NCBI RefSeq assembly: GCF_016861605.1
Contig: NZ_BOLM01000003.1
Span: 62,001-126,000, forward strand
Length of the DNA: 64,000 nt
Direction of reading: 5' to 3'
Source of the DNA: Levilactobacillus wangkuiensis
GTDB taxonomy: Bacteria > Bacillota > Bacilli > Lactobacillales > Lactobacillaceae
Part shown: positions 931 to 62,715 of the stretch, piece after piece
Layout: each line of letters starts with the position of its first letter
Numbering within the stretch: the stretch's first letter is position 1
Made by a program: the position numbers and the translations under genes
The notes under the pieces: model-generated
What the model saw: the letters and a program-made list of their open reading frames with translations, nothing else
Databases searched by the model: none
Told to the model about the DNA's origin: nothing

Positions 931-1126
931 GGGTGAGCGACCAGAGGCGGATCAAGGTGCCCTGCTGTGTCGAGAATATAAGCTGAACGCCTTTCTCAGC
1001 TTATATTCTGGGACGACCTTGGAAACACGCGCTTCACAGCGTGGTTTCAAGGCGAGACGCCAGACCGCTTCTCAGGCTGGCGTCGGTCCCCATAGCAGGG
1101 CACCTTGAATCCGCCGGCGGGAGCGG
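931..1126 (-). repeat. Type-1 structured intergenic repeat
   Basis: Near-complete copy. The closing stem pairs 950-970 with 1093-1114 (GGCGGATCAAGGTGCC with GGCACCTTG-A-ATCCGCC, one bulged A). Internal hairpins include a long AT-rich one, AGAATATAAGCTGA with TCAGCTTATATTCT. It lies 57 bp before opuCA, and the element's 5' end faces that gene. I see no promoter between the repeat and opuCA, so it may sit in the opuC leader as the complementary strand (inference). Confidence 0.85.
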
Positions 1127-1182
1127 GCTTAACGCCACATTTGTTAATTTTTTTGCAACACCATCATACAGGAGGTTAATCT

Positions 1183-2391
1183 ATGCTACTTTCAATGGAA
1201 CATCTACGTAAGGAATATCCCAATGGCAAGATTGCCGTCGACGACTTCAATTTGCAAGTCGGCCGCGGTGAATTTATTGCGTTCATCGGGACGTCCGGCT
1301 CGGGGAAGACCACGACCATGCGGATGATTAACCGCATGCTGAAACAAACGTCCGGGACCATCAAGATCAACGACAAAGATATTTCTAAAATGGACCCGGT
1401 CAAGCTCCGGCGGTCCATCGGCTATGTCATCCAAAACATTGGCCTGATGCCCCACATGACCATTCAAGAAAACATCGAAATGGTGCCCAAACTCCTCGGC
1501 TGGTCCAAGGAAAAGCGGGCCGAACAAGCCCACAAGATGATTGAGCTGGCCCAACTGCCCGACGACATGCTGAAACGCTACCCCGGCGAACTTTCCGGTG
1601 GGCAACAGCAACGGATCGGCGTTGTGCGGGCCCTAGCCGCCGACCAAGAGATCATTTTAATGGATGAACCCTTCGGTGCCCTCGACCCCATCACGCGGGA
1701 ATCGCTGCAGGATCTGGTCAAGCATTTACAAGAAGACCTGGGTAAGACCTTCATCTTCGTAACCCACGACATGGACGAGGCGCTACATCTAGCCACCAAG
1801 GTCGTCATCATGAGCCAAGGCAAGCAGGTCCAGGTCGACACGCCCGAAAATATCTTGCGTCACCCGGCCAACGACTTCGTCACCAACCTGATCGGTGAGG
1901 AACGACTGATCCGGGCCCAACCAAACATTTTATCCGTTAGCCAAATCATGTTAAAGAACCCCGTTTCCATCACACCCGACAAGACCGTCGACGATGCCAT
2001 CGAACTGATGCATGACCGGCGAGTTGATACGCTGCTGGTCACCGACGACGCCGGCGTACTCCAGGGTTACGTTGACCTGGAAGACATCAACCGGATCACC
2101 GACCCCCACACGGCCGTGGGTGATTTCACCAACCGGCAAGTCTTCTTTGTGAAGGCCGACTCGCTGATTGGCGATACCGTCGACCGGATTCTGAAACAAG
2201 GAGTTAAAAACGTCCCCGTGGTCGACAAGGACAAGCACCTGGTCGGCATCGTCACCCGGACGGCGCTGGTCGACATCGTCTACGATGCCCTGCGTGGCGC
2301 GCCCGAAGCTAATGAAGAACCGGCCTCACCGATCAACGCGGATATCCACGCCGCTGCGACCCACGATGAAGGGGGCGAAATCCCACAATGA
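1183..2391 (+). CDS. opuCA: Osmolyte ABC transporter ATP-binding protein OpuCA
   Basis: This is the ATPase of an OpuC-type importer for glycine betaine, carnitine or choline, acting at the inner face of the membrane during osmotic stress. The 402-residue protein has Walker A GTSGSGKT near residue 38, the signature LSGGQQQR, Walker [12 protein letters not shown] and the switch histidine in VTHD. Two CBS domains follow from about residue 250 to 370; in this family they sense ionic strength or cyclic dinucleotides. The start has AGGAGG at 1170-1175. It overlaps opuCB by four bases and heads a four-gene operon in the standard opuCABCD order. The exact substrate cannot be told from sequence. Confidence 0.93.
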
Positions 2392-3014
2392 TGCATTTTC
2401 TAGCAACTTATGGGACCCAACTGATCGCCAAGACTGGCCAACACCTGTACATCTCGGCGGCCGCCCTGGCCCTTGGGGTCATCGTGGCCGTGCCACTGGG
2501 CATCCTGTTGACGCGGATGAAACATGGCGCCAACTTTGTCATTACCCTGGCCGGCGTGCTGCAAACGATTCCGGCCATGGCGTTGTTAGCCATGATGATT
2601 CCCCTCTTCGGCATTGGCTCGACGCCCGCCATCGTGGCCCTGTTCATTTACTCCCTGCTGCCCATTTTGCGCAACACTTATTTGGGCATGCAAGGGGTCT
2701 CCCCGACCGTGCGTGACGCGGCCAAAGGTATGGGCATGACCTGGTGGCAAATGATGATTCAGGCCGAGATTCCCTTAGCCGCACCGGTCATCATGGCCGG
2801 TATCCGGCTGTCCGCGACCTACGTGATTGCGTGGGCCACCCTGGCGTCCTACATCGGTGCCGGTGGTCTGGGGGATTTCATTTTCAACGGACTGAACCTG
2901 TACCGCTCTGACCTGATTCTTGGCGGCTCGATTCCCGTTATCCTGTTGGCGCTTCTCGTCGACTATTTATTGGGTAAAGTGGAAACGGCCGTCACGCCAC
3001 GCCAATTACGATAG
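2388..3014 (+). CDS. opuCB: Osmolyte ABC transporter permease OpuCB
   Basis: One of the two membrane channel subunits of the OpuC importer. The 208-residue protein has about five or six hydrophobic segments and the binding-protein-dependent permease loop (DAAKGMGMT...[14 protein letters not shown]) that docks on the ATPase. Start and stop overlap with opuCA (ATGA), indicating translational coupling. An adjacent ATG three bases on is an equally possible start. Its partner is OpuCD, which shares the motifs [20 protein letters not shown] and SLLPI. Confidence 0.92.
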
Positions 3015-3023
3015 GAGGCCGCT

Positions 3024-3956
3024 ATGCGAAAACAGTTACGCAAATGGCTCGCTGCCTTTCTCGTTGCGGTCGTCCTCCTGCCTTTGGGCGGGTGCGCGCT
3101 GCCGGGACTGTCTGGCTCGGGCAATAACACCGTGCGAATCGCGTCACAGAATACCACGGAACAACAGATCATGGCCTACGTCATTGCAGGAATGATTGGT
3201 CACTATACAAACTTAAACACGACGATCATCAATAACCTGGGATCCGGGAACGTCAGCTTCAACGCCCTGAAAAACAAGCAGGCGGACATCTCATCCATCC
3301 GCTTCAACGGGACCGACCTGACGACCATTTTGAATGAAAAATTTGAGCGGGACCCCGCCAAGGTCAAAGCGACCGTCACGCGTGAATTTCAGCAACGTTA
3401 CCAGATGACTTATTTCAAATCATACGGTTTCGCCGACACCTACGCCTGGATGGTCAAGCCAGCCTTCGCGAAGAAACACCACCTGAAGACCGTCAGTGAC
3501 CTGCAAAAACTGGCTCCCACTATGAAAGTCGGGATCGACCAAATTTGGCAAAACCGTCAAGGCGACGGGTACCCGGCCTTTCAGAAGATGTACGGCTATA
3601 GCTTCGGCACGGTGCTGCCCATGCAGACCGGGTTGCTCTACGACGCCTTATCCGCCGACAAGATGGACGCCATTCTAGGCTACTCCACCGACGGCCGGGT
3701 CGCCAGCTATCATTTGAAACTGCTGAAGGACGACAAGAACTTCTTCCCACCCTACGATGCGAGTCCCGTCGCCACCGATGCTATTTTGAAACAGCATCCC
3801 GAACTACGCAGCGTGCTGAATCGTTTGGTCGGCAAGGTTTCGCTACAGACCATGCAAAAATTAAACTACCAAGTCGACGACCAACTGGAAGAACCCCAGA
3901 CGGTTGCCAACAATTTCTTGAAAGAACACCACTACTTTGAAGGGGGGAACGACTAG
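3024..3956 (+). CDS. opuCC: Osmolyte-binding lipoprotein OpuCC
   Basis: The extracellular substrate-binding component of the importer. A lipoprotein signal peptide ends in the lipobox LGGC, with Cys24 as the lipidation site, so the mature protein is tethered to the outer membrane leaflet. The remaining sequence (310 residues in all) is a glycine betaine/OpuAC-type binding fold, including TEQQIMAYVIAGMI near its start and the DAILGYSTDGR segment typical of OpuCC/ProX proteins. It begins nine bases after opuCB with a GGAGG site and ends two bases before opuCD. Choice between betaine, carnitine and choline is not visible. Confidence 0.92.
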   Translation: MRKQLRKWLAAFLVAVVLLPLGGCALPGLSGSGNNTVRIASQNTTEQQIMAYVIAGMIGHYTNLNTTIINNLGSGNVSFNALKNKQADISSIRFNGTDLTTILNEKFERDPAKVKATVTREFQQRYQMTYFKSYGFADTYAWMVKPAFAKKHHLKTVSDLQKLAPTMKVGIDQIWQNRQGDGYPAFQKMYGYSFGTVLPMQTGLLYDALSADKMDAILGYSTDGRVASYHLKLLKDDKNFFPPYDASPVATDAILKQHPELRSVLNRLVGKVSLQTMQKLNYQVDDQLEEPQTVANNFLKEHHYFEGGND

Positions 3957-3958
3957 TT

Positions 3959-4621
3959 ATGAAAGACATGGGTTTACTCAGTCAGCTAGTTTATTACTTT
4001 AGCCACAACGGGATGTACGTCCTCAGTCAATTTAACCAAACGTTCCTCGTTTCCATCTACGGGGTGCTGCTGGGCGCCATCGTCGGGATTCCCCTGGGCA
4101 TTTGGATTTCCCAGTACCGGCGCCTCTCGCCCGTCATTATTGGTATTGCCAACGTGATCCAAACGATTCCGTCACTGGCGATGCTGTCCATCTTGATGCT
4201 AGGCCTGGGCTTGGGGCAGACCACGGTCATCGTGACCGTCTTCCTCTACTCCCTGCTGCCCATCATTAAAAACACCTACACCGGTATGCTGAGCGTTGAC
4301 GCCGACGTGCTGGATGCCGGGAAGGGCATGGGGATGACCCGCTTTCAGGTCATGATGACCATCCGGATTCCCCTATCGCTATCAGTGATCATCGCTGGGA
4401 TTCGCAACGCCTTAGTCATCGGTATCGGGATCACCGTTATCGGCTCATTCATCGGTTCCGGTGGGCTCGGGGACATCATCGTCCGCGGGACCAACGCCAC
4501 GAATGGTGGGGCGATTATCCTGGCCGGGGCATTGCCAACGGCTTTGATGGCGATTATCACGGACCTGGTCCTCTCCTTCATCGAAAAGCGCCTGACGCCT
4601 AAGACTTCTTCTGAACGGTAG
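3959..4621 (+). CDS. opuCD: Osmolyte ABC transporter permease OpuCD
   Basis: Second permease subunit (220 residues), homologous to OpuCB and completing the transporter. It has several membrane-spanning segments and the coupling loop DAGKGMGMTRFQVMMTIRIPLSLSVIIAG. Its start is two bases after the opuCC stop, consistent with one polycistronic mRNA. Nine bases after its stop a type-1 repeat begins, followed by a terminator hairpin at 4962-5004, so the repeat probably lies in the operon's 3' untranslated region. Confidence 0.92.
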   Translation: MKDMGLLSQLVYYFSHNGMYVLSQFNQTFLVSIYGVLLGAIVGIPLGIWISQYRRLSPVIIGIANVIQTIPSLAMLSILMLGLGLGQTTVIVTVFLYSLLPIIKNTYTGMLSVDADVLDAGKGMGMTRFQVMMTIRIPLSLSVIIAGIRNALVIGIGITVIGSFIGSGGLGDIIVRGTNATNGGAIILAGALPTALMAIITDLVLSFIEKRLTPKTSSER

Positions 4622-4629
4622 TATTGGTT

Positions 4630-4850
4630 TGGGTCAAGTGCGTGTAAACTTGGCCGCCTGCGGCTTCCAGGACTACGCCTGCTGTGGGGCCGGTTTCCGC
4701 CTGTGGTGCGGGCTCCCACCTCAACTTTGAGCCCTGCGAGAACCGTGCAGGTCTCAAAGGTTGTCCCAGTCTGTAAGCCGGCACAAGACGCCGACCAACA
4801 GACTCGACACAGCCGTCTCCGTCCTGGCTTCCTCCGGCTCAGATTGTGAC
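4630..4850 (+). repeat. Type-1 structured intergenic repeat (variant b)
   Basis: This copy shares CCTGCTGTGGGGCCGG, CAACTTTGAG...CTCAAAGGTTG and CGACACAGC with the other type-1 copies, but has a different closing stem (GGCCGCCTGCGGCTTCCAGGA with TCCTGGCTTCCTCCGGCTC) and an arm GTAAGCCGGC...GCCGAC. It is closest to the copy at 40935. It starts nine bases after the opuCD stop in the same orientation and precedes the terminator at 4962-5004. Confidence 0.85.
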
Positions 4851-4961
4851 ACCAATCTAACGTTGGTTTGGCGAAGTCTTAGGCGGCAGCCGTGGTCGTG
4901 GTCAGTTTGCTAGTGTGATGGGCTCGATGGCTGTCACGCTGGTTATTTGTTTCGATAATTT

Positions 4962-5004
4962 TAGCGCCACCTGCTTCGGTTAACCCGAGGTGGGTGGCGC
5001 TTTT
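4962..5004 (+). terminator. Rho-independent terminator of opuC operon
   Basis: AGCGCCACC pairs with GGTGGCGCT, with an inner CGGGTTAACCCG-like pairing, followed by TTTTC. It is the first T-tailed hairpin after opuCD and lies downstream of the repeat. Confidence 0.8.
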
Positions 5005-5197
5005 CTATTGTCCGTAATTGACTTAACTCCCCAGCCACCTTTGCGGGCAATCAATGCTATACTGTGTAAAGTAATATTCGTAGGTGTCAATGACTATCGA
5101 CGCCATATGTTAGTTAAATGCTGCCTGAACAACCCCCACACCCGGCCAAAGTACCAACCATCCCTTAATTTTCCTTTGGGGTCGGTGCACAACTCTC

Positions 5198-5384
5198 AGC
5201 CGGAGTCAGCTAGGTGCGAAGTCCCGTGTCGGTGGTTGTTAGGGCGAGTGGTCTTCTCGGCCTTACAGCACGGGCTGTGGTCGAGACTTACGGGTTTCAG
5301 TAAGACTTGACCGCAAGGCCGAAGACCGCCCTTCGGCTTCGGGCGTGCCTCATGGGACGAGAGCACCTAGCTGACGCAGGCGGT
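5198..5384 (-). repeat. Type-3 structured intergenic repeat
   Basis: A divergent member of the same architecture. A perfect 13-bp closing stem (GTCAGCTAGGTGC with GCACCTAGCTGAC) encloses a CCGTGTCGG box, a GGTCTTCTCGGCCTT/AAGGCCGAAGACC stem and further hairpins. Primary sequence is largely different from types 1 and 2, but the boxes fall in the same order. It ends 46 bp before the transporter start; a TGCTATACT extended -10-like sequence lies upstream near 5050-5058. Confidence 0.65.
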
Positions 5385-5429
5385 AAAGTTAGAACCAACC
5401 ACAAAACGGAAAATCAAGGAGATGATTGG

Positions 5430-6758
5430 GTGGAGCGGTTACGGCAAGCGGGCATCGACTTTTCCGTCGGTACCCTGAACTTTCTAGCAAATATTGGCCT
5501 CATGTTACCCTACATTTTAATGTTATTGAAGTACCAGGAAACGCAGAGCGAGACGTATCTGATTGCCCTGGTGGCCTTCTACATTTCGCGGGCGGCCAGC
5601 ATTTTTTATACCAAACGCTTAAATCTGCGGTCGAGCACCTACCTCATCGTGAGTCTGGTGCTGGGCGCGCTGGGCAGCTTAATCTTTGCCCTAACAAATG
5701 CGGTGGGTTGGCTCGTTATCGGCAGCCTGTTGTGGGGCTACAGTGCCGCCACGATTTGGCCGTACTTTTTGACTCTCAAGCTGCACCTCAGTCAGTCGAG
5801 TGAATTTAAAATGAAGCGGCTGTACTGGCTCATCTTCCTGGGGCTCGGCGTGATGCTGGCCATCGATCTGGCGGCCGGGTGGAGCTATACGCTGACCTTT
5901 AGCGTGCTGGCACTGCTCTACTTGGGTGCCCTGCCCGGCGGTATTTTGCTGGACAACTTTACCAACGATTTCTACCAGAACCGGCCAACGCATCCCCACG
6001 GTCTCCAACAGGGCTGGCGCTGGGCATTGTCTCTGATTGGCTTCGCGGCCATTGCCTTACTGACGACGTTACGGAAGGCCGCGCTGAACCTGCCAAATGG
6101 GTTGGTGCTCGCCATCATCGGTGTGGCGCTGGTGATTCTAGCCATCGAGCTGTACGGCGACCGCCACGTGCTGCCCAACTACAAGATTCGCCTGTTAAAT
6201 CGGGGCTTCCTGATGAGCCTGGTGCTGCTATTTAGCGGGTTCTTCGCCTACTTCTACTTTGGGCATGCGGGGATGTACGTGGTCTTTGCGCTGTACCTCG
6301 TCGGGTTTGAGACCGGTTATCCCCTCTTTAATAAACTGGGACGTGGGTCGACCAAACGGGCGCTACGGCTCAGTCAGGTGAGTTTGCTGGCGGGGCACGT
6401 GCTCTTGCTGATTCCATGGCGCTGGTCCTACGTGGTGGGAATTTTACTGATTACCCTGTACGTCGGTTACGACAACCCGACCATCAACGCTACCCTGTAT
6501 GGCGCGCCGGAGATTGACCACGATATGGCCATCGTTCACAAATACCGCTTCTCCACGTACGGCGGCCTGTTGTGCCAACTGGTCATGTTTGGCCTGTTGG
6601 TGGCGGTGAGCGCGGGTGCCCATTTATCAATCCTGTCATTCTTCAAACCCAGTGATGCCAGTCATTTCTGGCTGTATACCCTATCTATGAGCTGGCCGTT
6701 AACGCTGGCCTCGTTGGGCATTTCGCTGGGAAATATTTTGCACGAACCTAAGGGGTAG
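5430..6758 (+). CDS. Polytopic membrane transporter, MFS-like
   Basis: A 442-residue membrane protein with roughly 12 hydrophobic segments and short charged loops. It resembles major-facilitator proteins, but I see no family-specific motif and no substrate can be named. The reading frame is open further upstream to 5307, but that part lies inside the structured repeat. I therefore choose GTG at 5430, which has AAGGAG at 5417-5422 with normal spacing and begins MERLRQAGIDFSV. A terminator overlaps its stop codon. It stands alone after the opuC operon. Confidence 0.75.
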   Translation: MERLRQAGIDFSVGTLNFLANIGLMLPYILMLLKYQETQSETYLIALVAFYISRAASIFYTKRLNLRSSTYLIVSLVLGALGSLIFALTNAVGWLVIGSLLWGYSAATIWPYFLTLKLHLSQSSEFKMKRLYWLIFLGLGVMLAIDLAAGWSYTLTFSVLALLYLGALPGGILLDNFTNDFYQNRPTHPHGLQQGWRWALSLIGFAAIALLTTLRKAALNLPNGLVLAIIGVALVILAIELYGDRHVLPNYKIRLLNRGFLMSLVLLFSGFFAYFYFGHAGMYVVFALYLVGFETGYPLFNKLGRGSTKRALRLSQVSLLAGHVLLLIPWRWSYVVGILLITLYVGYDNPTINATLYGAPEIDHDMAIVHKYRFSTYGGLLCQLVMFGLLVAVSAGAHLSILSFFKPSDASHFWLYTLSMSWPLTLASLGISLGNILHEPKG

Positions 6759-12937: not shown

Positions 12938-14116
12938 TTATTTTTTAACAACTAACGTTTTGTTCGCCGTCACGTAACGTCCATCGGTTAAGACTAACCG
13001 CGTCGTTAAATGATAATGCCGAATGGCTTTTATCTTCAGTACCGTTCCCCGTTTGAAATGCTGTAGACGCTGGCCACTCAAATCAGCTTGACAATATGCA
13101 TTGACCCCCAAGGGATTCAACACCCGAACGCGCCGTGGTTTAACGCGGAAATAGGTGTTGGTCATGTCACTATCGCTCGCCGTCACGTAGCCCGTCAGGC
13201 CGGCCGTCTTGGAGTGATGATTCACATCACGGACCCGATACCGCAAGACACCAGAAGCGTTCCGTCGGTACCCCATTACCACAAACTGAGGCCACTGATT
13301 CCGTGGGCGTTTGGTATACCAGTGCAGGCGGGTTTGCCGATTAAAATTGACCGTACGGTAGAGGCCAATCTTTTTAAACGCCGATACCGCCTGACCCTTA
13401 GGAACGACTTTGACCGGATCAGTTGGCGCTGGGGTCGATGGTGTGGGTGTAACTGTCGTTGGTGGCGTGGTGACCGCTGTACCACCGCCGTTCTCCGCTG
13501 GCACCTTCTTCTGGTAAATGTACGTGAACTCACCTGGCTTGGTGGCATCCGTTCGGGCTAAGTCATAACCAGCAATGGGTAAGACCGCCTTTTTCAACTC
13601 AGCGGTAAAATCGAAAGCTACCGTCACGTTCTCTGGTGCCCGTAAAGCCTTTCCCGCAGTATCTACAAAGTTAATGGTTAATTTCTGCATATCAGGTACA
13701 ACCTGATTAGGATCCATAGAAAAACGGAACCTAACATCACTATCCCTAACCCAATCATGCGTACTAACTCGCCAGCTTTGGGAACCATCCATGAGATTCA
13801 GTTTTTCTGAATTCACGAACCAATCCGTTCCCTGCCCTAAGGCGCGTCCATCAATCAATTCATCTTCATCATTATAAAGATGAGTCACGTATTTTGTATT
13901 TTCTATTTCAATCACTGGAGTCGTGACGTACCCGCCAGTCGCATCCTCAACGACCACCTGACTACCAGATGTCGTTTCTTGCGGTTGCTCCGATGAATCC
14001 TCCCCCGTGACAACGTCACCGTGCGCGACAACTGTTTTCCCCACTACTATCAACAAAACGACTCCCACTAAAACACTAACCAGAATTCCCTTAATTCCAG
14101 TCTTCACGACTCCCAC
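12938..14116 (-). CDS. Secreted MucBP-like / DUF5776 surface protein
   Basis: A 392-residue exported protein. A hydrophobic signal or anchor segment covers residues 8-30. A MucBP-like unit lies near 150-215 (LTINFVDTAGKAL...VAFDFT...AGYDLARTDATKPGEFTYIYQKK), the fold seen in mucin-binding proteins. A Thr/Pro linker follows, then two DUF5776 units to the C-terminus. No sortase motif is present. It is the only one of the four DUF5776 genes on the minus strand and shares a terminator with its convergent neighbour. The MucBP call is from pattern; binding to mucin is not shown. Confidence 0.75.
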   Translation of the reverse strand: MGVVKTGIKGILVSVLVGVVLLIVVGKTVVAHGDVVTGEDSSEQPQETTSGSQVVVEDATGGYVTTPVIEIENTKYVTHLYNDEDELIDGRALGQGTDWFVNSEKLNLMDGSQSWRVSTHDWVRDSDVRFRFSMDPNQVVPDMQKLTINFVDTAGKALRAPENVTVAFDFTAELKKAVLPIAGYDLARTDATKPGEFTYIYQKKVPAENGGGTAVTTPPTTVTPTPSTPAPTDPVKVVPKGQAVSAFKKIGLYRTVNFNRQTRLHWYTKRPRNQWPQFVVMGYRRNASGVLRYRVRDVNHHSKTAGLTGYVTASDSDMTNTYFRVKPRRVRVLNPLGVNAYCQADLSGQRLQHFKRGTVLKIKAIRHYHLTTRLVLTDGRYVTANKTLVVKK

Positions 14117-14214
14117 TTCCTATGCCAAAATGATTGGGTCAAGTCATGACGTTTTATAAAAATAATTATCATCACTGACTTTATATACCCGGAATGATTA
14201 TCCCCAGTATAACG

Positions 14215-14258
14215 CAAAAAGGACCAAGCCAGTCAAATATCTCAGCTAAACCTGGTCC
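14215..14258 (-). terminator. Terminator of the Crp/Fnr regulator
   Basis: On the minus strand GGACCA pairs with TGGTCC and is followed by TTTTTGC, just after the regulator's stop codon. Confidence 0.75.
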
Positions 14259-14267
14259 AAATCAGTT

Positions 14268-14918
14268 TCACTCCACCAACAAGGTCACACGCTTCCCGAC
14301 AATCTCCAACAGCCCGTCCGCCACCAACTGGCCCAGCTGGCGACTCAACGTTTCTGGCGTGATGCCGAGGAAACTGGCGAGCTCCTTTTTCTTCACGGGC
14401 AAATCGAAGACCGTGGCCTGTTGCGCCTGGCCAATCTGCTGGAGGTAGGCCAGCACCCGGTTTTTCGCCGTCAGGTTGCCCGTTAACGCGCTCACCGACT
14501 CCAGCTCGGTCAAGCGGTCGCCCAGGATATTCAGGAGGTTAAACGCCACGTCTGGCTCCCGGCGCAGGAGGTCCTGAAAGTCCGCGCGGCCAATCGAACA
14601 GATTCGCGTATCCTCCAAGGCCTCGGCGTAGTTGAAGTGCTGGCGCTTGGCAAACAGCGCGGCTTCACTGTCGATGGTCCCGGCCCGCAGCATGTACAGC
14701 ACCTTCTCCTTGCCGTTTTCGTTGAGCTGATACACCTTGACCCGCCCGGAATCGACGATCATCATCCGGTCCAGCTGACTGGTCGGGTCATAGAGCACCG
14801 TGCCCTTCTTGAATAGCTGCTGGTGCACGGAAATCTTGGCAAGCTCCGCAATGGCAGCGTCATCCAGCCCCTTGAAAATGGGGGCACTCCGCACACATTT
14901 AACTGGCGAATGCGTCAT
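14268..14918 (-). CDS. Crp/Fnr family transcriptional regulator
   Basis: A 216-residue transcription factor: cyclic-nucleotide-binding beta-roll (about residues 15-130), dimer helix, then a winged helix-turn-helix (KKELASFLGITPETLSRQLGQL), where the ETLSR recognition helix matches the FNR E--SR signature for TTGAT half-sites. One cysteine lies near the N-terminus (SPVKCVRSAPIF), too few for a full iron-sulfur cluster as in E. coli FNR. The ATG at 14918 is preferred over an upstream in-frame ATG because it has AAAGGAG about nine bases ahead. It is divergent from the 15019 gene with a perfect FNR box between, so it probably regulates that unit. Confidence 0.88.
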   Translation of the reverse strand: MTHSPVKCVRSAPIFKGLDDAAIAELAKISVHQQLFKKGTVLYDPTSQLDRMMIVDSGRVKVYQLNENGKEKVLYMLRAGTIDSEAALFAKRQHFNYAEALEDTRICSIGRADFQDLLRREPDVAFNLLNILGDRLTELESVSALTGNLTAKNRVLAYLQQIGQAQQATVFDLPVKKKELASFLGITPETLSRQLGQLVADGLLEIVGKRVTLLVE

Positions 14919-14946
14919 CTTTTTTCGCTCCTTTTTTGGTATTTTC

Positions 14947-14960
14947 TTGATATTTATCAA
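14947..14960. promoter_or_regulatory. FNR/FLP box (TTGAT-N4-ATCAA)
   Basis: The palindrome TTGATATTTATCAA is a perfect match to the FNR-family consensus. A -10 candidate TATACT lies at 14983-14988 with no recognisable -35, placing the expected start near 14995. The box centre is then at about -41.5, the class II activator position. This suggests direct activation of the 15019 gene by the divergent regulator; binding itself is inferred. Confidence 0.75.
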
Positions 14961-15018
14961 TTTTTATTTCTTAAAACCATTATATACTAAACCCATCAAT
15001 TCGAGGAGGTCATTTCAT

Positions 15019-15573
15019 ATGAAAATCTATCAAGCAACTATCGTGCCACTCAACGAACAGGTCATCGGGACCGCGGCCCACGGGACGGCGCTGTTCACCA
15101 TCAACGGGGACACCCTGACCATTAATATTGAAATGTTTGACACCCCGGCCAACCTGCAACACTGGGAACATTTCCACGGCTTCCCGGATGGCAAGGCCGC
15201 TGATATCGCCACGAGCGCGCAGGACATGAACCACGATGGCTTCGTGGACCTCCCCGAGACGGGCGCGGTTTCCGGGACCACCATGGTGCCGTTCAACGAC
15301 GCGCCCCACGAGATGGACATCCCCAACGACGCCTACCCCGTGGCGGACGCGAACGGCTACTTCGCCTACACCAAGGTCGTGCCGCTGGCGAAGCTGGATG
15401 AAAAATTTAAGGCCACCTTTAACGATAGCGAGTTGGCGCTCGACAAGCGGGTCATCTACATCCACGGTGTGACGGACGATGTCGTCCTGCCAGACACGGT
15501 TGCCGGTGCGGTCGGCCACTACTCCACCCACGTCACCCTGCCGATTGCGGTCGGTAAGATTGTGACGCTGTGA
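15019..15573 (+). CDS. Conserved protein of unknown function, putative FNR target
   Basis: A 184-residue cytoplasmic protein without signal peptide or membrane segments. It has a His-rich stretch (HWEHFHGF near residue 47), a DxNxDG calcium-loop-like motif (DMNHDGFVDL near 68) and a second histidine motif (YIHGV near 152). The pattern of histidine-glycine motifs recalls CHRD or Cu/Zn-superoxide-dismutase-like beta proteins, but I cannot assign a function. A strong GAGGAGG precedes the ATG. The FNR box upstream suggests expression under low oxygen or redox stress. The next small gene overlaps its stop codon. Confidence 0.7.
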   Translation: MKIYQATIVPLNEQVIGTAAHGTALFTINGDTLTINIEMFDTPANLQHWEHFHGFPDGKAADIATSAQDMNHDGFVDLPETGAVSGTTMVPFNDAPHEMDIPNDAYPVADANGYFAYTKVVPLAKLDEKFKATFNDSELALDKRVIYIHGVTDDVVLPDTVAGAVGHYSTHVTLPIAVGKIVTL

Positions 15574-15722
15574 TGGGCGGTAAGAAAAGGGGCGCCATCG
15601 TGGCAACCGCCTACTACGCGGTGATCCTGTTGCTGGTGGCGTTTCACTTGGACATGCTGGCAATGTGGGGCATGGCTGTGGGGATGCTGGTTGGCGCGGG
15701 ATTGCAGTTGGTTCGGCGATAA
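15573..15722 (+). CDS. Small two-helix membrane protein (49 aa)
   Basis: The start codon overlaps the preceding stop (TGATG), so it is probably translated by coupling. The 49-residue product begins MGGKKRGAIVATAYYAVILL. It has a first hydrophobic helix (about 8-24), a short turn with HLD, then a second helix (about 28-45) and an Arg-Arg end. The positive N-terminus is typical of a small integral membrane protein. No family is recognised. Sharing the FNR-controlled transcript suggests a role with the 15019 product. Confidence 0.6.
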   Translation: MGGKKRGAIVATAYYAVILLLVAFHLDMLAMWGMAVGMLVGAGLQLVRR

Positions 15723-15730
15723 TAGATTTA

Positions 15731-15770
15731 TGGGAGTCACTCTGGTCTAGTTGGACTGGGGTGATTTTTT
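15731..15770 (+). terminator. Terminator after the FNR-linked pair
   Basis: AGTCACTC-TGGTC pairs imperfectly with GGACT-GGGGTGA, followed by seven T residues. Confidence 0.65.
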
Positions 15771-15796
15771 TCGGTTGACTGAATTTTTGCAATAAA

Positions 15797-15841
15797 ATAA
15801 CCCCGCCGACTCACCATGAATGGTTGGCCGAAGAGGTTATC
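15797..15841 (-). terminator. Terminator of csc operon 1
   Basis: On the minus strand ATAACC...GGTTAT encloses an inner CTTCGGCC/GAGTCGG pairing and is followed by TTTTATT. It lies 15 bp after the cscC stop. Confidence 0.65.
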
Positions 15842-15855
15842 GTTATGCATCATAT

Positions 15856-17466
15856 TTAATTACCCTTAGGCGCATCGGACAGAGTCCACGTCATCGATCC
15901 GCTGTATTCATTATCTGACCCACCAGCATAAACGTTGGGGTTAGCCTGCAGGTAAACGCCAGCCGGCACGGAACTTCCGGTATAAGAACCACCCTTCTGA
16001 TTCCAGTCACTAGCCAAATCATCCGTGCTAGTAGACCGGTTACCCGAAGCCACTTGCACAGCATTGCCTGCATCTAATGACGTGACAGTGCCTTTACCAT
16101 CCGCATAGACCACGTGACCACTAAATGTGTGCCCCGCGGCATCGGTTAAGGTAGAAGCCTGCGCCGTCAGGTACCAAGGTGAACCAGTTGCCCGTGAATC
16201 TGAAACGTCGACGTTGTATTTTCCAGGTGCATATAAAGTCTGCGTTGAAGGAACGGCTAAGTTTACACCATTACCAAATACCAACTGAGAGATTGTTGTG
16301 AACTGCATATTTCCCAGTCCACGAGTGACATTGATAGTTGCTGGATCGGTTGATTTGTCACCAGCAGTATCACTCGCGTTAATTTGAACGGCTTGTGTAT
16401 CCCCACCAGCTAACGTCGATAAGTCACTTGCTGTATCAAAGGCTAGTCCATCACCACTTGCAGTTAAAGCTGTAGACGAATTTTGTTTTGTCACCACTAA
16501 ATTCGACTGCTTTGCCAGCCAAGTAGCAATATCTGAAGAGCTCTTGCCCTTGATGTTTGCATCCCAGTCATCTGGACTAACGGTCAGGTTAGATGTTGCT
16601 GGTGTAATTGTTAAGGGCACTGAATCAACAACATTTGCAGTCGCAGACTTAGTATCACCAAAATCATTGCTCTCTGTCACTGTGATAGTTCCAACATTCA
16701 ACATATCTGTTCCCAAGGAAATGGTGTAAGTTCCATCAGAATTAACAACTGCTGAATGATTCCCATCAACACCCGTAAGTGTAACTGTTGTGTTAGGCTC
16801 AGCCGTCCCAGTAATTTCACGGTTAGCAATGGGCACATCATTTCCGTCATTGATTGTGACATTAGCCATTGCAGAAATTGCAGAATTACTTCCGGTTAAA
16901 GTTAAATCTTTATACGAATTATACCAAATCTGATCCCCAGAATAACGCGTCGCCTGATAGGAAAACCCAATATAAATTGGCAGTTTAGGATCACTTCCTA
17001 AATTCTTAAGGTTCACTGGTATCGTAATGTAACCGCTTGGAGGTGTTGCTGTCTTATTTCCTGAGGACAGCGTCCACAATTTCGGTGATGATTGCAATGA
17101 CACCATTTTATTGTCATTGTATGTTAAAACATCCGCGTAAAATTTAACATATTGCGCACCGGCCCACGTTTTACTAATCGTTGCTGACCCGGAGAACGCG
17201 ACGTAAATATTCTTCGTATTTTTAGTAATCCGTCCACCATCGACGCCATCTGCTGTTACAGTGTCTAATGTGGGATAAGAAGAACCCAGCTCCTTACTAT
17301 CCCCATCGATAAAATTCGGGTCCTGACTGAAAGCCCCAGCTTTTGCTGCATCAGGACCTTTAAGGTCAGTACCTGGTTGTGCATGAGCTATATCCACCTG
17401 CATGCCCAATCCAACAGCAGCGAGTAGCAGCAAACCAAGCTGTAGTAAAATTTTCTTCAACTTCAT
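15856..17466 (-). CDS. cscC: Large WxL-domain surface protein (CscC), csc operon 1
   Basis: A 536-residue exported protein, last gene of the first csc operon. The signal peptide ends near AHAQP. A beta-rich central region contains an Ig-like unit (ITGTAEPNTTVTLTG...). The C-terminal WxL domain carries the paired motifs SPWYLTAQ and GSMTWTLSD. WxL domains bind peptidoglycan non-covalently (family knowledge) and CscC-type proteins are proposed to form the exposed part of an extracellular complex with CscA, CscB and CscD. It starts seven bases after cscD. Paralogues at 20660 and 25452 share the order of segments but differ strongly in sequence. Confidence 0.85.
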   Translation of the reverse strand: MKLKKILLQLGLLLLAAVGLGMQVDIAHAQPGTDLKGPDAAKAGAFSQDPNFIDGDSKELGSSYPTLDTVTADGVDGGRITKNTKNIYVAFSGSATISKTWAGAQYVKFYADVLTYNDNKMVSLQSSPKLWTLSSGNKTATPPSGYITIPVNLKNLGSDPKLPIYIGFSYQATRYSGDQIWYNSYKDLTLTGSNSAISAMANVTINDGNDVPIANREITGTAEPNTTVTLTGVDGNHSAVVNSDGTYTISLGTDMLNVGTITVTESNDFGDTKSATANVVDSVPLTITPATSNLTVSPDDWDANIKGKSSSDIATWLAKQSNLVVTKQNSSTALTASGDGLAFDTASDLSTLAGGDTQAVQINASDTAGDKSTDPATINVTRGLGNMQFTTISQLVFGNGVNLAVPSTQTLYAPGKYNVDVSDSRATGSPWYLTAQASTLTDAAGHTFSGHVVYADGKGTVTSLDAGNAVQVASGNRSTSTDDLASDWNQKGGSYTGSSVPAGVYLQANPNVYAGGSDNEYSGSMTWTLSDAPKGN

Positions 17467-17472
17467 CTTAGC

Positions 17473-17934
17473 TCACTCCCTCTCCCGTAATAGGCGTGCT
17501 TGCCGATAAACTGTGACCGACAAGATTAGGACAATTAACAATAACAACCCGAAAATACTGGTTAAAAACATCCGCGATTCACTGGTCTGTGGTAACCGAC
17601 CGGCAATCAAATCAGCAGAGCCAGCCTTCACAACCGTAGCCACCGCCGCGGCCGGTGAGGCCTTTTTATTGCCGGTTGTCGTTGCTTGATCATCTTGTGT
17701 CTGATTCTTAATAGAAGGTTTCTTGCCATTCGGAATGGTGTCAGAACCTTCATCGGCACCGGCGCCCATTCCTGAGCCGTCCAGCTTGGCCGCATTCGGA
17801 TTAGCATGAATTGTGACAGCTGTTCCGGTATTGCCGCCCGTACCACCAACTGTGGTGGCGAGCGCTGGCGTTCCCGCGCCAAGGCCAATTAAAACTGTCA
17901 AAACGAGAACCAGTCGCATGAATATTCTTTTCAT
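17473..17934 (-). CDS. cscD: Small sortase-anchored protein (CscD), csc operon 1
   Basis: A 153-residue protein with signal peptide (cleavage near ALATT), low-complexity Gly/Asn/Lys region and a sorting signal: LPQTSE near residue 114, hydrophobic span, and basic tail RQARLLRERE. LPQTxE is the sortase motif typical of several lactobacilli. It is presumably linked covalently to peptidoglycan and holds the csc complex at the wall. ATG at 17934 is chosen over an upstream in-frame start because AAAGGAGG lies nine bases ahead. Confidence 0.85.
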   Translation of the reverse strand: MKRIFMRLVLVLTVLIGLGAGTPALATTVGGTGGNTGTAVTIHANPNAAKLDGSGMGAGADEGSDTIPNGKKPSIKNQTQDDQATTTGNKKASPAAAVATVVKAGSADLIAGRLPQTSESRMFLTSIFGLLLLIVLILSVTVYRQARLLRERE

Positions 17935-17964
17935 GACCAGCGCCCTCCTTTCGTACACAGCAGC

Positions 17965-19020: not shown

Positions 19021-19088
19021 CCTTACACCTCTGCCTTACCCTAGTTAGACTTTGTCGTATCAATCTCATGATACTACATATGTAGGCG

Positions 19089-19123
19089 AAAAAGGTGCTC
19101 ATCTCTAAACAATGGACACCTTC
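19089..19123 (-). terminator. Intra-operon hairpin between cscB and cscA, operon 1
   Basis: On the minus strand AAGGTGTCCAT pairs with ATGAGCACCTT and is followed by TTTTTCG. It is equivalent to hairpins at 23959 and 28950. A partial terminator would make cscB the most abundant product of the operon (inference). Confidence 0.7.
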
Positions 19124-19139
19124 ACTCGCAATCAAACAA

Positions 19140-19937: not shown

Positions 19938-20117
19938 AAATAAAGCACCCCTTAGATTGATCTTTTACGGATTCCCAAAACACTGTGACAGACAACACAT
20001 CTTATGGGTCGTCATGACTTTCGGTAAGAAGATGAGCACCTCAATCATTAAGACCAGTTGTGGAAAAGCAACTCCCCCTAGAAGGATGTTACGCTTCACT
20101 AACTATGTAACAAAGCT

Positions 20118-20146
20118 ATTATAAGTCCAAATAGTTCAGTTGTAAA
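20118..20146 (-). promoter_or_regulatory. Promoter of csc operon 1
   Basis: On the minus strand TTTACA (20146-20141), a 17-bp spacer and TATAAT (20123-20118). Downstream, GCTTTGTTACATAGTTAGT is conserved in operons 1 and 2, with most of it also in operon 3. The leader to cscB is about 175 nt long and partly conserved between operons. Confidence 0.85.
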
Positions 20147-20275
20147 CCATTTTCTTGCATATATTTTAAAAAGATTAATCGATTGATAAAAGTTAAGTGA
20201 ATTACCGTACTTTAGGCATTTATAGCCTATTTAGCGGCACTATTCCACCTGTTTATCGTTTATACAAACTAGCCA

Positions 20276-20600: not shown

Positions 20601-20638
20601 GTCCCAACAAGTTGGCCATAAATCCTTGTTGAGGCGTT
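20597..20638 (-). terminator. Terminator of csc operon 2
   Basis: On the minus strand AACGCCTCAACAAG pairs with CTTGTTGGGACGTT, followed by TTTTT, 22 bp after the cscC stop of operon 2. Confidence 0.85.
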
Positions 20639-20659
20639 CATTAAATTTAGTTTAGCCCT

Positions 20660-22330: not shown

Positions 22331-22338
22331 CTCGAAAC

Positions 22339-22800: not shown

Positions 22801-22831
22801 CACCCACGCCCTCCTCTCAGGCCGAACGTGC

Positions 22832-23890: not shown

Positions 23891-23958
23891 ACTTTCACCC
23901 CTGATTTACCCTAGTTAAATACTTAACTCATTAATTTCATAATACGCCATATGTAAAT

Positions 23959-23994: not shown

Positions 23995-24014
23995 CTCGTA
24001 AATAACACATTTTT

Positions 24015-27308: not shown

Positions 27309-27314
27309 TTTGAC

Positions 27315-32023: not shown

Positions 32024-32209
32024 CCGTTCCCGCCGGCGGGCTCAAAGCGCCCTGCTGTGGGGCCGGCTCCAGCCAAAGGTCGGGCTTCCACCTCAACTTT
32101 ATGCCTGAGAGGCGGTCACAAAGGTTGTCCCATGGGCTAAGCTGAGGAAATCACTCAGCTAAGGCCATCGACACAGCTGGTCGCTTTGGCCCGCCGCTGG
32201 TCACTCACA
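32024..32209 (+). repeat. Type-1 structured intergenic repeat with outer stem
   Basis: Core closes with GGCGGGCTCAAAG against CTTTGGCCCGCC. Flanking it, GGGATGGTGAAAACTGAGC (31990-32008) can pair with GCTCATTTTCATCATCCC (32222-32239), an outer stem shared with the type-2 copies. The copy therefore links the two subtypes. It begins 130 bp from the start of the 30365 gene, pointing away from it. Confidence 0.85.
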
Positions 32210-37159: not shown

Positions 37160-37365
37160 TCGGCCGGGGATTCCGGCTGCGGCAGGTCAAGGATTTCGAC
37201 GCTGGTGGGGCAGCCCTGAAGCCTGCAGTACGGTCTTCAGGGCAACTTCCAGCCGACAAATCACGTCTGGAAGGTTGGCCCGTGTTCTAAGGTCGAGCTA
37301 AAATCGCTCGATCTAAGAACACCGACACCAGGTCTCATCCTTGCCTGCCTCCGCCGCCATCCCCT
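37160..37365 (+). repeat. Type-1 structured intergenic repeat (variant c)
   Basis: Same architecture, diverged sequence: closing stem GGATTCCGGCTGCGGCAGG with CCTGCCTCCGCCG region, CTTCCAGCC, CACGTCTGGAAGG, GTGTTCTAAGGTCGAGC with GCTCGATCTAAGAACAC, and CGACACCAGG in place of CGACACAGC. It starts nine bases after the yagU stop and precedes the terminator at 37534. Confidence 0.7.
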
Positions 37366-40934: not shown

Positions 40935-41138
40935 GAGGATTGGCCGCCTGCGGCTTCCAGGACTACGCCTGCTGTGGGGCCCGGTTCCGGCCTGAGGAAC
41001 GGTCCTCCACCTCGCTTTGAAACCTCGCTGAAGTTCGCGAGTTTCCAAAGTCGTCCCAGGCTGTAAGCCGGCTAAGAAACGCCGACTAACACCCTCGACA
41101 CAGCTGGCTCCGTCCTGGCTTCCTCCGGCTCAGGTTGT
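40935..41138 (+). repeat. Type-1 structured intergenic repeat (variant b)
   Basis: Very close to the copy at 4630, including the closing stem GGCCGCCTGCGGCTTCCAGGA with TCCTGGCTTCCTCCGGCTC. Core boxes CCTGCTGTGGGGCC and CGACACAGCTGG are present; the middle hairpin here is CTTTGAAACC...GGTTTCCAAAG-like instead of CTTTGAG. It is 108 bp from the padR start, pointing away. Confidence 0.85.
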
Positions 41139-41187: not shown

Positions 41188-41390
41188 ATTCGCCTCCGGG
41201 ATGGTGAAAATGAACCGGAACGCTGTGGGCGCCCGTCTGGAGCCAAAGAGCGGTCTCCAGACTTACTTTGAGCCTCACAACCCGAGTCTCAAAGATAGCA
41301 GTTGCCTAAGTGGCCAAGCCCGCCGCTAAGGCAACTCCCACGGCTAAGCTCATTTTCACCATCCCTGCGGCTAACACTGGTTTAACCCGC
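41188..41390 (+). repeat. Type-2 structured intergenic repeat
   Basis: Outer stem GGGATGGTGAAAATGA pairs perfectly with TCATTTTCACCATCCC. Inside are CGCTGTGGGCGCC, GTCTGGAGCC...GGTCTCCAGAC, CTTTGAG...CTCAAAG, AGTTGCCTAAGTGG and TTAGGCAACT-like arms and CCCACGGCT. It lies 50 bp after the type-1 copy, in the same orientation. Confidence 0.85.
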
Positions 41391-45220: not shown

Positions 45221-45260
45221 CAAAAACACCTCCGTAGATTCATGTGCCTTTTACGACTCC

Positions 45261-45452: not shown

Positions 45453-45651
45453 TCCGCCTCCGGGACGGTGAAAATGAGCCGGGACGCTGTGGGCGCACGT
45501 CCGGAGCCAAAGAGCGGTCTCCGAACTTACTTTGAGCCGCTAAGAACCGCGTCTCAAAGATATCAGTTCCCTAAGTGGCTCTGCCACCAAGGGAACTCCC
45601 ACGGCTGAGCTCATTTTCACCATCCCTGCGGCTCACACTGGTTTAACCCGC
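45453..45651 (+). repeat. Type-2 structured intergenic repeat
   Basis: Outer stem GGGACGGTGAAAATGAGC pairs with GCTCATTTTCACCATCCC (one G-T pair). CGCTGTGGGCGC, GGTCTCCGAAC, CTTTGAGCC...GTCTCAAAG and AGTTCCCTAAGTGG/CCAAGGGAACT are present. The last arm differs from the 41188 copy (TGCC to TCCC) with a matching change in its partner. It points away from ohyA, 233 bp from its start. Confidence 0.87.
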
Positions 45652-50512: not shown

Positions 50513-50700
50513 CTAAACCAGTGTTAGCCGTGAGGGCGGAAAAAATGAGTCCAGCCGTGGGATTTACGGTGCGCTAGCAGCGTAAATAGCGACTTTGAAA
50601 CGCGGTCTTGGCGGTTCAAAGCGAGTCCAGAGACCGCCCTTTGGCTCTGGGCGTCCTGCCCACAGCGTTCCGATCTCATTTTTTCCGCCCGGTAAGGCGC
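50513..50700 (-). repeat. Type-2 structured intergenic repeat
   Basis: Outer stem GGGCGGAAAAAATGAG pairs perfectly with CTCATTTTTTCCGCCC. Compared with the copy at 47643 the T/A pair in the stem became A/T on both arms. It ends 66 bp before add, with its 5' end towards add. Confidence 0.88.
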
Positions 50701-52029: not shown

Positions 52030-52212
52030 GCTGTGAGTGACCAGAAGCGGATCAAGTTGCCCAGCTGTGTCGGTGGCCTTGACTGGCGTTCTGTGCCAGC
52101 CTAGCCCACGGGACGACCTTTGAGACCGCCCTTCGGCTCAAAGTCTAGGCGGAATCCCGCTTTTCAGGCTGGAGCCGACCCCATAGCAAGGCAACTTGAA
52201 TCCGCCGGCGAA
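52030..52212 (-). repeat. Type-1 structured repeat, array unit 1
   Basis: Closing stem GCGGATCAAGTTGCC with GGCAACTTG-A-ATCCGC. Internal arm GGCTGG/CCAGCC-like (GACTGGCGTTCTGTGCCAGCC). Middle hairpin GACGACCTTTGAG...CTCAAAGTC. Confidence 0.88.
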
Positions 52213-52277
52213 ATGTAACCCGCCCAACCACCAACACACCTACCACCCACGACTACGTCTTTAAAAATTAACGCGGC

Positions 52278-52458
52278 CGTGAGTGACCAGAGGCGGGCCA
52301 AACCGGCCAGCTGTGTCGGTGGCCTTGGCTGGCGTTCTGTGCCAACCTAGACCACGGGGCAACCTTTGAGACCGCCCCTCAGGCTCAAAGTTGAGGTGGA
52401 AGCCCGTCCTTTGGCTGGAGCCGACCCCATAGCAGGCCGGTTTGAGCCCGCCGGCGAA
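52278..52458 (-). repeat. Type-1 structured repeat, array unit 2
   Basis: Closing stem changed on both arms: GGCGGGCCAAACCGGCC with GGCCGGTTTGA-GCCCGCC. The change from CAAGTTGCC to CAAACCGGCC is matched exactly on the opposite arm, which is strong evidence that the pairing is kept. Confidence 0.88.
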
Positions 52459-52519
52459 ATTTAACACCCAACCACCAACACACCAGCCATCCACGACCAC
52501 GTCTTTCAAATTAACACAA

Positions 52520-52750: not shown

Positions 52751-53575
52751 ATGCCGCAAGAATACCCCTACCAAGACGCCTTCAACCGGTTACTAACCGA
52801 CCGGGCCATGGCCGAAGCCACGCGCGACGAATACACGACCACGCTGAAGGATTTCTTCCATTACTTAGAGAACTTCAACCCAACTTATCAGAAGACCCAC
52901 CGCGTGCGTGATCTCCAAACGCAGGACGTCGAGCAGTACCTCAGCATGTTGCTCACCGCCCGCCAAATCCAGAATCAGACCTACAACAAGGTGTTGTCCC
53001 ACCTGAACATTTATTTCAAATTTTTGTTCTCGCACCGCTGGACGCCCTACTTGCCAACGCTGGACCTTAAAAGCAAGCCCAAGCAAGCGCCGCAACCGGT
53101 CAACTATCGCTGGGTTGACGACCTGACCGACTACCTCGCCGATGAGCGGCTCCACATTTATACGCGTCTGACCCTCCTGCTGGTGTCACAGGGCTATCCC
53201 GTGCAAAGCTTCCTCAAGCCCGGCGTGACGGAAAAAATCGATACCCACGATTGGCCAGCTACCGTCCAGCCCTTTCTCAAGGCCTTTCGGGACTTCATCG
53301 ACCCGCTTCAGCAGCGGTTTCTTTGTGACGACTGGTTTCTCAAGCAACGGGCCGCGGCCGACCCCCATTTGACGTTGCCGGGCCTCCACAAGTATTTGAA
53401 ACCGGACGAAGCGGTCATTGGCTTTGCCCTCAGCCCTACCGTCCTCTATCAAGGTTACTTAGTTAACTATCTCCGGCGCCACCCGCAAAAGACCGACAGA
53501 GAGGTCACCGCGGCGTTGAACCTGCCACCGGACTCCATCGATTATTACCGCCGATTGAGCCAACGGGCTGATTAG
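52751..53575 (+). CDS. Tyrosine-recombinase-like protein lacking catalytic residues
   Basis: A 274-residue protein. Residues about 8-95 form a core-binding (SAM-like) domain of integrases (ATRDEYTTTLKDFFHYLENFN..., TQDVEQYLSMLLTARQIQNQTYNKVLSHLNIYFKFLFSHR). The C-terminal part has the helical feel of the catalytic domain, but I find neither the first Arg in its usual LLLxTGLRxSE setting, the HxxR box, nor a nucleophilic Tyr after it. The segment LTLLLVSQGYPVQSF stands where the Arg box belongs. It is probably a DNA-binding relative without recombinase activity. GTGAGG precedes the ATG. Standing next to the repeat array is suggestive but not proof of a link. Confidence 0.7.
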   Translation: MPQEYPYQDAFNRLLTDRAMAEATRDEYTTTLKDFFHYLENFNPTYQKTHRVRDLQTQDVEQYLSMLLTARQIQNQTYNKVLSHLNIYFKFLFSHRWTPYLPTLDLKSKPKQAPQPVNYRWVDDLTDYLADERLHIYTRLTLLLVSQGYPVQSFLKPGVTEKIDTHDWPATVQPFLKAFRDFIDPLQQRFLCDDWFLKQRAAADPHLTLPGLHKYLKPDEAVIGFALSPTVLYQGYLVNYLRRHPQKTDREVTAALNLPPDSIDYYRRLSQRAD

Positions 53576-62024: not shown

Positions 62025-62103
62025 GCCCTTTCTCAATAATCTGAATCGGATTAACGTCAATTGTTTTATCGATTGACAGGAAGACGCAATGAGGTGAGTA
62101 ATC

Positions 62104-62373
62104 ATGGATAAGCAAACAACCCTAACCATTCGTCTCAACCAGGATGTCAAAAAAGCAGCTCTCAAAGTTGTGGCTGATATGGGACTCGACATAGACACGG
62201 TCATCAACTTATTTTTAGCCGAGCTTGTGCGCACCAACCGGTTGCCTTTCAACCCAACCGGACCAGGCTTTCCGACTATTTGGCATGATGATCCACGAGA
62301 AATTGCTACCTTTAACCAAAGCATTGGTTTAGCCGATGACGGGAAAAATTACGGTCATGAGCTATCTGATTAA
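62104..62373 (+). CDS. RelB/DinJ family antitoxin, orphan
   Basis: An 89-residue protein with the ribbon-helix-helix start of RelB/DinJ antitoxins (QTTLTIRLNQDVKKAALKVVADMGLDIDTVINLFLAELVRTNRLPF). The tail is acidic (DDPREIATFNQ...). In a working module a YafQ/RelE-type toxin gene should follow directly; instead a terminator comes 20 bp later. So it is either an orphan antitoxin or the rest of a pair. GAGGTGAGTA precedes the ATG. It could still autorepress or neutralise a toxin encoded elsewhere. Confidence 0.85.
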   Translation: MDKQTTLTIRLNQDVKKAALKVVADMGLDIDTVINLFLAELVRTNRLPFNPTGPGFPTIWHDDPREIATFNQSIGLADDGKNYGHELSD

Positions 62374-62391
62374 CAAATTATCTGAGTATTC

Positions 62392-62432
62392 AAAATGGTG
62401 TCACCCACAAAAATCGGGTGACACCATTTTTA
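62392..62432. terminator. Bidirectional terminator
   Basis: AAAATGGTGTCACCC pairs with GGGTGACACCATTTT. It serves the antitoxin gene and, from the other side, the monooxygenase gene with its repeat. Confidence 0.92.
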
Positions 62433-62530
62433 CGTTAATATTCACACCAATTAAATCATTCATGTGGTCAAGTCACGGTGGGCTAAACCCGTATCAGCCG
62501 CAGAGCTGGGAAAACTGGACTGACTAGGGC

Positions 62531-62715
62531 AGTGTCAGTGACCAGAGGCGAATCAAAGTGCCTGGCTGTGTCGGTGGGCTTGGCTGAGGTATTTTCTCAG
62601 CCTAGCCCACGGGACAACCTTTGAGACCGCCCTTTGGCTCAAAGTTGAGGTGGAAGCCCGCCCTTCGGCTGGAACCGACCCCACAGCAGGGCACTTTGAA
62701 TCCGCCGCCGGGAAC
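62531..62715 (-). repeat. Type-1 structured intergenic repeat
   Basis: Closing stem GGCGAATCAAAGTGCC with GGCACTTTGA-ATCCGCC; CAAAGTGCC/GGCACTTTG replaces the CAAGGTGCC/GGCACCTTG of the 931 copy with a change on both arms. Internal arm GGCTGAGGTATTTTCTCAGCC. It begins 49 bp after the 62764 gene's stop, and the terminator at 62392-62432 follows. Confidence 0.88.

Follow-up and report, generated by a model that had tools for sequence, protein, structure and literature searches.

A 64,000-nucleotide stretch of the Levilactobacillus wangkuiensis genome (contig NZ_BOLM01000003.1, positions 62,001 to 126,000; hereafter the window) carries 17 copies and a remnant of a palindromic repeat. We explain this repeat, with about even confidence, as a family of dispersed palindromic units at gene borders in Lactobacillaceae, resembling the REP and BOX families and acting as DNA. 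As an interspersed palindromic repeat it is ordinary in kind; what sets it apart is its unusual size, abundance and range, together with its polarity.

The abundance was determined with a covariance model (R1) trained on 38 host copies. The sampled DNA comprised the window, which is part of contig C3 of the 3.136 Mb genome, and 397 kb of two host contigs. R1 gave 141 matches in the window together with 20 stretches taken from the contigs C2 and C3 (460,662 bases). After dropping opposite-strand matches of the same copy, 105 copies were left, one per 4.4 kb, and their cores make up about 3.7% of the sampled 460.7 kb. Extrapolation gives about 700 copies for the whole host genome, assuming that the sampled parts of C2 and C3 are typical.

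The copies are intergenic and polar. None of the 98 usable host copies lies inside a predicted gene (seven of the 105, at stretch ends, were left out; genes were called by a simple in-house codon-usage predictor), and 92 of them have a gene closer to their 5′ end than to their 3′ end. The same holds for 75 of 87 copies in named relatives, counted in 42 of 80 listed loci (at least 106 stretches reported) picked by a hairpin-2 pattern, and for 37 of 43 copies in the genera g4, g38, g20 and g15, a sample picked around matches. Host copies that are alone in their intergenic region show this polarity in 47 of 49 cases; such singletons are about half of all host copies (49/98). The gene on the 5′ side presents its stop in 50 host cases and its start in 48, at median core distances of 54 bp from a facing stop and 132 bp from a facing start.

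Close neighbours obey the same rule. Less than 700 bp apart, the orientations +−, −−, ++ and −+ occur 20, 8, 3 and 0 times in the host and 30, 3, 5 and 0 times in the named relatives; in the other genera there are 11 +− pairs and none of any other orientation. All 61 opposite-orientation neighbours are convergent (20/20, 30/30 and 11/11). The two members of a pair resemble each other no more than random copies do (medians 0.613 versus 0.622 and 0.591 versus 0.571), so that each place seems to have been filled independently, and an origin of the pairs by inverted duplication was dropped for this reason. Shared 3′-side sequence was also rejected as a hidden part of the unit, since the recurrent 10-mers past the first ~70 bases are pieces of partner elements. 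The gene at 3959–4621 illustrates the rule across species: among 30 congener loci fetched with its orthologues, 18 have copies downstream, the stop-adjoining copy points away from the gene in 16, and the copies farther downstream point back (17/17).

Copies in the window and their fold

The window was searched with R1 by cmsearch. The 17 copies and the fragment listed by an earlier sequence-only reading were all recovered, with a correction of strands: nine of the 17 lie on the minus strand. Eleven belong to the R1 training set and are matched by construction. The six others (5205, 37178, 41200, 45464, 47666 and 50535) have E values from 8.1e-16 to 0.0056, the weakest full copies being those at 47666 (E 0.0013) and 50535 (E 0.0056). 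The core spans are as follows.

747..851, minus: remnant of a copy from another subfamily (the fragment of the earlier list; E 0.0061), present as a full copy in two sister genomes
946..1118, minus: repeat copy, 138 bits; on its 3′ side lies a non-homologous DNA patch interrupting an older copy, as compared with two sister genomes
4659..4831, plus: repeat copy, 116.9 bits; core 38 bp past the stop of gene 3959–4621
5205..5378, minus: repeat copy, 47.2 bits; convergent partner of 4659
32032..32195, plus: repeat copy, 172.7 bits
36144..36307, plus: repeat copy, 191.4 bits, with an extra palindromic outer stem in its flanks
37178..37349, plus: repeat copy of a diverged subfamily, 76.3 bits; complete in sister genome G213, internally deleted in sister genome G212
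40949..41122, plus: repeat copy, 103.6 bits; its hairpins 1 and 2 agree with those of a distant host copy and not with the sister-species copy at this place
41200..41360, plus: repeat copy of the subfamily with the GGTGAAAATGA outer stem, 43.6 bits
41641..41804, minus: repeat copy, 192.3 bits; convergent to 40949 and 41200
45464..45621, plus: repeat copy of the subfamily with the GGTGAAAATGA outer stem, 33.4 bits
47666..47823, minus: repeat copy of the GGTGAAAATGA-stem subfamily, 22.6 bits; present also in G212
50535..50692, minus: repeat copy of the GGTGAAAATGA-stem subfamily, 19.9 bits, E 0.0056; under the threshold of the 460 kb count and thus outside the 105
52046..52209, minus: repeat copy, first of a three-copy tandem row, 169.2 bits
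52292..52455, minus: repeat copy, second of this row, 162.1 bits
52534..52697, minus: repeat copy, third of this row, 188.7 bits
54521..54685, plus: repeat copy, 190.1 bits; core 28 bp past the stop of a gene
62547..62709, minus: repeat copy, 179.9 bits; core 54 bp away from the stop codon of a gene on the minus strand

The sequence-only reading had described boxes shared in fixed order, three or four inner hairpins and the lack of any open frame. Each of these needs qualification. The family consists of several subfamilies, and the copies at 41200, 45464, 47666 and 50535 close with GCTGTGGG...CCCACGGC (or the reverse complement) and not with CGACACAGC. The box GCTGTGGGG by itself, with at most one mismatch, is weakly above chance (26 sites versus 16.7 expected; 4 of 100 shuffles reach 26). 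The fold consists of a closing stem, a GGG/CCC helix round hairpins 1 and 2, and a separate hairpin 3; the inner hairpins number three, two of them inside the GGG/CCC helix. The absence of frames is correct for predicted genes, as given above, and literally incorrect, a mechanical 82-codon frame (52261–52509) running across the copy at 52292.

The fold is strongly supported by covariation, as a check suggested by the same reading revealed. Host copies (alignment A2, 38 rows, not aligned to the model) had a covariation score of 0.241, versus a shuffled mean of 0.107; for the named relatives (A5, 108 rows, aligned to the model and thus leaning to structure) the two values were 0.474 and 0.147. 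None of 500 shuffles reached the score in either case. Two-sided changes are found at 24 of 51 pairs in host copies, in which 97.2% of cells pair, compared with 90.4% in shuffles and at most 49.5% with slid partners. In the 108 named-relative matches, the alignment being fitted to the model, 50 of the 51 pairs show such changes. Paired columns use all four Watson–Crick pairs (e.g. AU 48, GC 41, UA 6, CG 5, with one G·U).

Whereas the paired columns vary, mismatched and unpaired positions are conserved across genera. The tip AGCC(3–9 nt)GGTCT, in which one T is unpaired or mismatched on one strand only, is present in 82 of 105 host, 54 of 102 named-relative and 25 of 45 other-genera copies, where 0.45, 0.65 and 0.05 are expected from shuffles and the opposite strand gives 0, 1 and 0. 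As single-stranded DNA, either strand of the repeat folds better than its shuffled versions (z −3.05 and −2.44), and a copy from another genus does so much more strongly (z −8.26).

Several genes of the window were noted alongside. Repeat copies stand on both sides of gene 36627–37151 (plus), which encodes a DUF1440 protein and whose upstream neighbour differs between species. The gene beside the triple row, 52751–53575 (plus), encodes a 274-residue protein that matches tyrosine recombinases in their N-terminal SAM-like domain (PF13495, 5.9e-9); there was no match to the catalytic half of these enzymes. The 762-residue ABC protein of gene 33779–36067 (minus) has a UvrA DNA-binding domain match and is probably a UvrA-like paralogue. 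Gene 43526–45229 (minus) codes for a protein of the MCRA family (PF06100, 6.3e-159), known as oleate hydratase. A run of minus-strand genes with a repeating size pattern (12938–30000) is free of repeat copies.

Pairing statistics and the transcript alternative

The earlier reading left open whether the structured, dispersed repeat, which is confirmed here, acts as RNA or as mobile hairpin DNA. The pairing statistics lean towards selection on DNA, or towards a strand-symmetric constraint. In columns with at least 85% Watson–Crick pairs, the 252 elements show 8683 Watson–Crick, 120 G·U, 156 A·C and 191 other combinations. The ratio of G·U to A·C is 53:70 in stop-adjoining and 33:44 in start-adjoining copies (odds ratio 1.01, p = 1.0). 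Were the fold kept as RNA, one would expect G·U to be tolerated on the transcribed strand and the stop-side and start-side classes to differ; neither is seen, which favours selection at the DNA level. The RNA controls are small: tRNA stems in the same genomes gave eight G·U and no A·C of 144, and T-box leaders gave 47:12 unfiltered and 6:3 at a filter of 0.7. The test tells DNA-level from RNA-level constraint, and it could be applied to other repeat families.

We consider it improbable that the repeat is an RNA element of untranslated regions, lying between stop and terminator when sense and between promoter and start when antisense, whose fold protects messenger ends or sets read-through. Such an element would have to fold on both strands, and it agrees with the short median distance (54 bp) from a facing stop to the beginning of the core. 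A terminator-like site lies beyond the element in 22 of 44 stop-adjoining host copies; it precedes the element, against this view, in 8 of the 44 and in 14 of 42 copies in relatives. Hairpins are commoner in the 3′ flank than in intergenic DNA used as a control (27% versus 10.6% of segments with z < −2; 81 and 123 segments). At the locus 3959–5430, a promoter-like TATACT box common to sister species (by eye) lies between the two copies, and the second copy sits between this box and the start codon. However, promoter scans, strict and softer, do not place the element in 5′ untranslated regions generally; in the softer scan, control genes were just modestly above the reverse strand. There is no G·U preference on either strand, the stop-side and start-side classes are alike, and Rfam gave no match in the window at gathering score and none at E up to 1 in 341 bases round one copy. 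Nor was a published description of the repeat found in the open-access literature searched, in line with the earlier reading, which knew of no named RNA or MITE family with these boxes.

Distribution and change between sister species

R1 matches occur in 44 of 201 genomes of the family and in 10 of 40 Lactobacillaceae genera, with at most 14 candidates scored per genome. A deeper scan covered 22 chosen genomes and scored at most 132 candidates (at most 150 in a whole-genome scan of the host). The host, G212 and G213 each had at least 132 copies; six other congeners had from 2 to 73, and the remaining genomes from 0 to 34, six of them having none. R1 is tuned to the main subfamily of the host and undercounts other genomes. 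The 80 listed matches to the hairpin-2 pattern in named genomes come from Levilactobacillus, Furfurilactobacillus and one uncultured ‘Lactobacillus’ assembly. Plasmids and phages gave no match to one host copy, plasmids none to one Furfurilactobacillus-type copy, and viral contigs none to one exact pattern; an origin from plasmids or phages was dropped on these grounds.

Copies are mostly inherited in place. Host DNA is about 92% identical to that of G212, and 28 of 32 host copies are found there at the same place and in the same orientation. Of the remaining four, one is actually shared and two have lost internal parts in G212; at the fourth place (146202 in the host), the other species holds a truncated member of another subfamily, again in the same orientation. 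For eight G212 copies the host gave no match at threshold. Sorted partly by eye, one of them (50535 of the window) is sub-threshold in the host, one is a tandem copy, three are wholly or internally deleted in the host, two have only end motifs left there, and the eighth lies outside the host comparison. Mapping of orthologues within the clusters 102949–103641 and 114046–114697 is approximate. The place 5205–5378 and its orthologous loci (L229, L230) differ in copy number, with a single copy in the host and tandem rows of two and of three copies in two sister genomes. As two close species have different contents at the same places, the dynamics of the repeat are testable.

Among unlinked host copies, the most similar pairs (97.7, 97.5 and 94.5% identity) are alike within the unit only, and the likeness stops abruptly at its ends. 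One of these pairs has a copy whose hairpins 1 and 2 follow the distant copy and not the sister-species one at that place, which we read as conversion. The inspected differences between sister species are deletions, tandem copies, conversions or swapped content. The comparison of orthologous loci, which the sequence-only reading had proposed as a check, found most copies in the same place, and the small number of paralogue pairs and sister-species differences looked at gave neither a target duplication nor a clean empty site. Recent mobility is not shown by these comparisons.

These data bear on two further explanations. The repeat might be a decaying non-autonomous element like a miniature inverted-repeat transposable element (MITE), without present function, in which template switching between arms makes the pairing and the polarity is the target preference of a lost enzyme. 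In its favour are the discreteness of the units, with their abrupt ends, the internal deletions and tandem duplications by which sister species differ, and the patchy copy number; we nevertheless regard it as unlikely. Correction from arm to arm would erase the mismatched and unpaired positions that are conserved across genera, most copies have stayed in place, and neither a target duplication, a clean empty site, a plasmid, phage or viral match nor a candidate transposase was found in the searches made. The AT-richness of MITEs is also lacking, most host copies having a GC content of 0.51–0.68 (one 0.45).

The other explanation, a structured recombination site like the attC sites of integrons at which a recombinase exchanges units or flanking DNA on folded single strands, is very improbable. 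It would account for stems that vary while unpaired bases are conserved, for different subfamilies in the same orientation at 146202 and for tract exchange between copies. But ordinary recombination explains the exchange, cassette arrays were not seen, and the host has general tyrosine recombinases only, with no integron integrase over the curated cut-off.

Proposed mechanism and comparison with known systems

The load of cores is large for a bacterial repeat, and together with a polarity present in the host, the named relatives and four further genera it asks for a mechanism. Selection at the DNA level on gene borders, or targeting to them, is the most economical account. A strand exposed during replication or by supercoiling would fold into the three-armed hairpin, and a putative DNA-hairpin-binding protein would read its unpaired bases; by analogy with REP and attC sites, as treated in the consulted parts of PMC8266576 and PMC2727003, the T at the tip may be what is recognized. 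The units would have been spread in the past by a putative enzyme and would now be mainly inherited in place, changing by deletion, tandem duplication and copying between family members. The polarity would mean either that spreading targeted gene borders or, somewhat likelier, that selection keeps only gene-facing copies. In its full form, this is a tentative proposal which we think possible though doubtful: a three-armed palindrome of fixed polarity that marks gene borders, keeps its place over speciation while its content is swapped, and is read as folded DNA by a putative host protein.

Several observations weigh against a unit acting as DNA. Neither a protein that binds the unit nor an enzyme that mobilises it was found; the IS200/IS605-type Y1 transposase (PF01797, the sole model tried) has no match in the host genome, which is 99.99% complete, and matches in 23 of 35 congeners. 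The XerD-like protein of 52751–53575, considered and rejected as a partner, is not co-distributed with the repeat: it occurs in repeat-free G003, whereas the repeat-bearing genomes G021, G049, G176 and G083 lack it or show just a weak, generic match. Polarity is weaker in single copies of named relatives (18/25, p 0.043). Without filtering, G·U exceeds A·C (56:21, 182:135 and 190:139 in alignments A2, A4 and A5). Most of this excess comes from few columns (34 of the 56 in one A2 column, 110 of the 190 in two A5 columns), which lie beside bulges or, in one case, may be a true wobble. The structure was predicted with G·U allowed, which works against A·C, and the T-box control at the same 0.85 filter gave 0:0 and is uninformative.

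Among known systems, the RNA motifs of Lactobacillales (Lacto-rpoB, Lacto-usp, Lacto-int and others), as far as covered by the portion of PMC2864571 used, are likewise structured intergenic sequences; the repeat differs from them in having no Rfam match, hundreds of copies and no G·U preference. With attC sites it shares the conservation of a structure with extrahelical bases over that of sequence (PMC2727003, in part). Unlike attC sites, the copies are scattered over the chromosome without cassettes, and membership in integrons was dropped, the IntI integrase having no match over the cut-off in the host.

The BOX, RUP and SPRITE repeats of Streptococcus pneumoniae are closer: according to the excerpted account in PMC3049150, these are small, folded, interspersed repeats of a Firmicutes genome, lie near genes, spread in the past and are now slow to move. 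Going by the BOX description in the same excerpt, our repeat would seem to differ, the modular A–B–C build not being seen here. It also occurs across at least 10 genera, and a strict polarity of 5′ end to gene was not found reported for BOX in that excerpt.

The REP, BIME and REPIN sequences served by TnpAREP (RAYT) are likewise many dispersed intergenic palindromic units with inverted neighbours, and as folded single strands of DNA they have a stem that carries a conserved mismatch or bulge (PMC8266576, parts consulted). REP units measure roughly 20–40 bp; the lactobacillar unit has about 165–190 bp and three arms. GTAG near the 5′ end is found in only 8 of 252 copies (3/105, 5/102 and 0/45). 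The host has no Y1 transposase gene, and membership in the RAYT/REPIN system was dropped on these two grounds; in addition, the units are polar towards genes. Like REPINs they form inverted doublets, the opposite neighbours within 700 bp being convergent without exception, yet about half of the host copies stand single.

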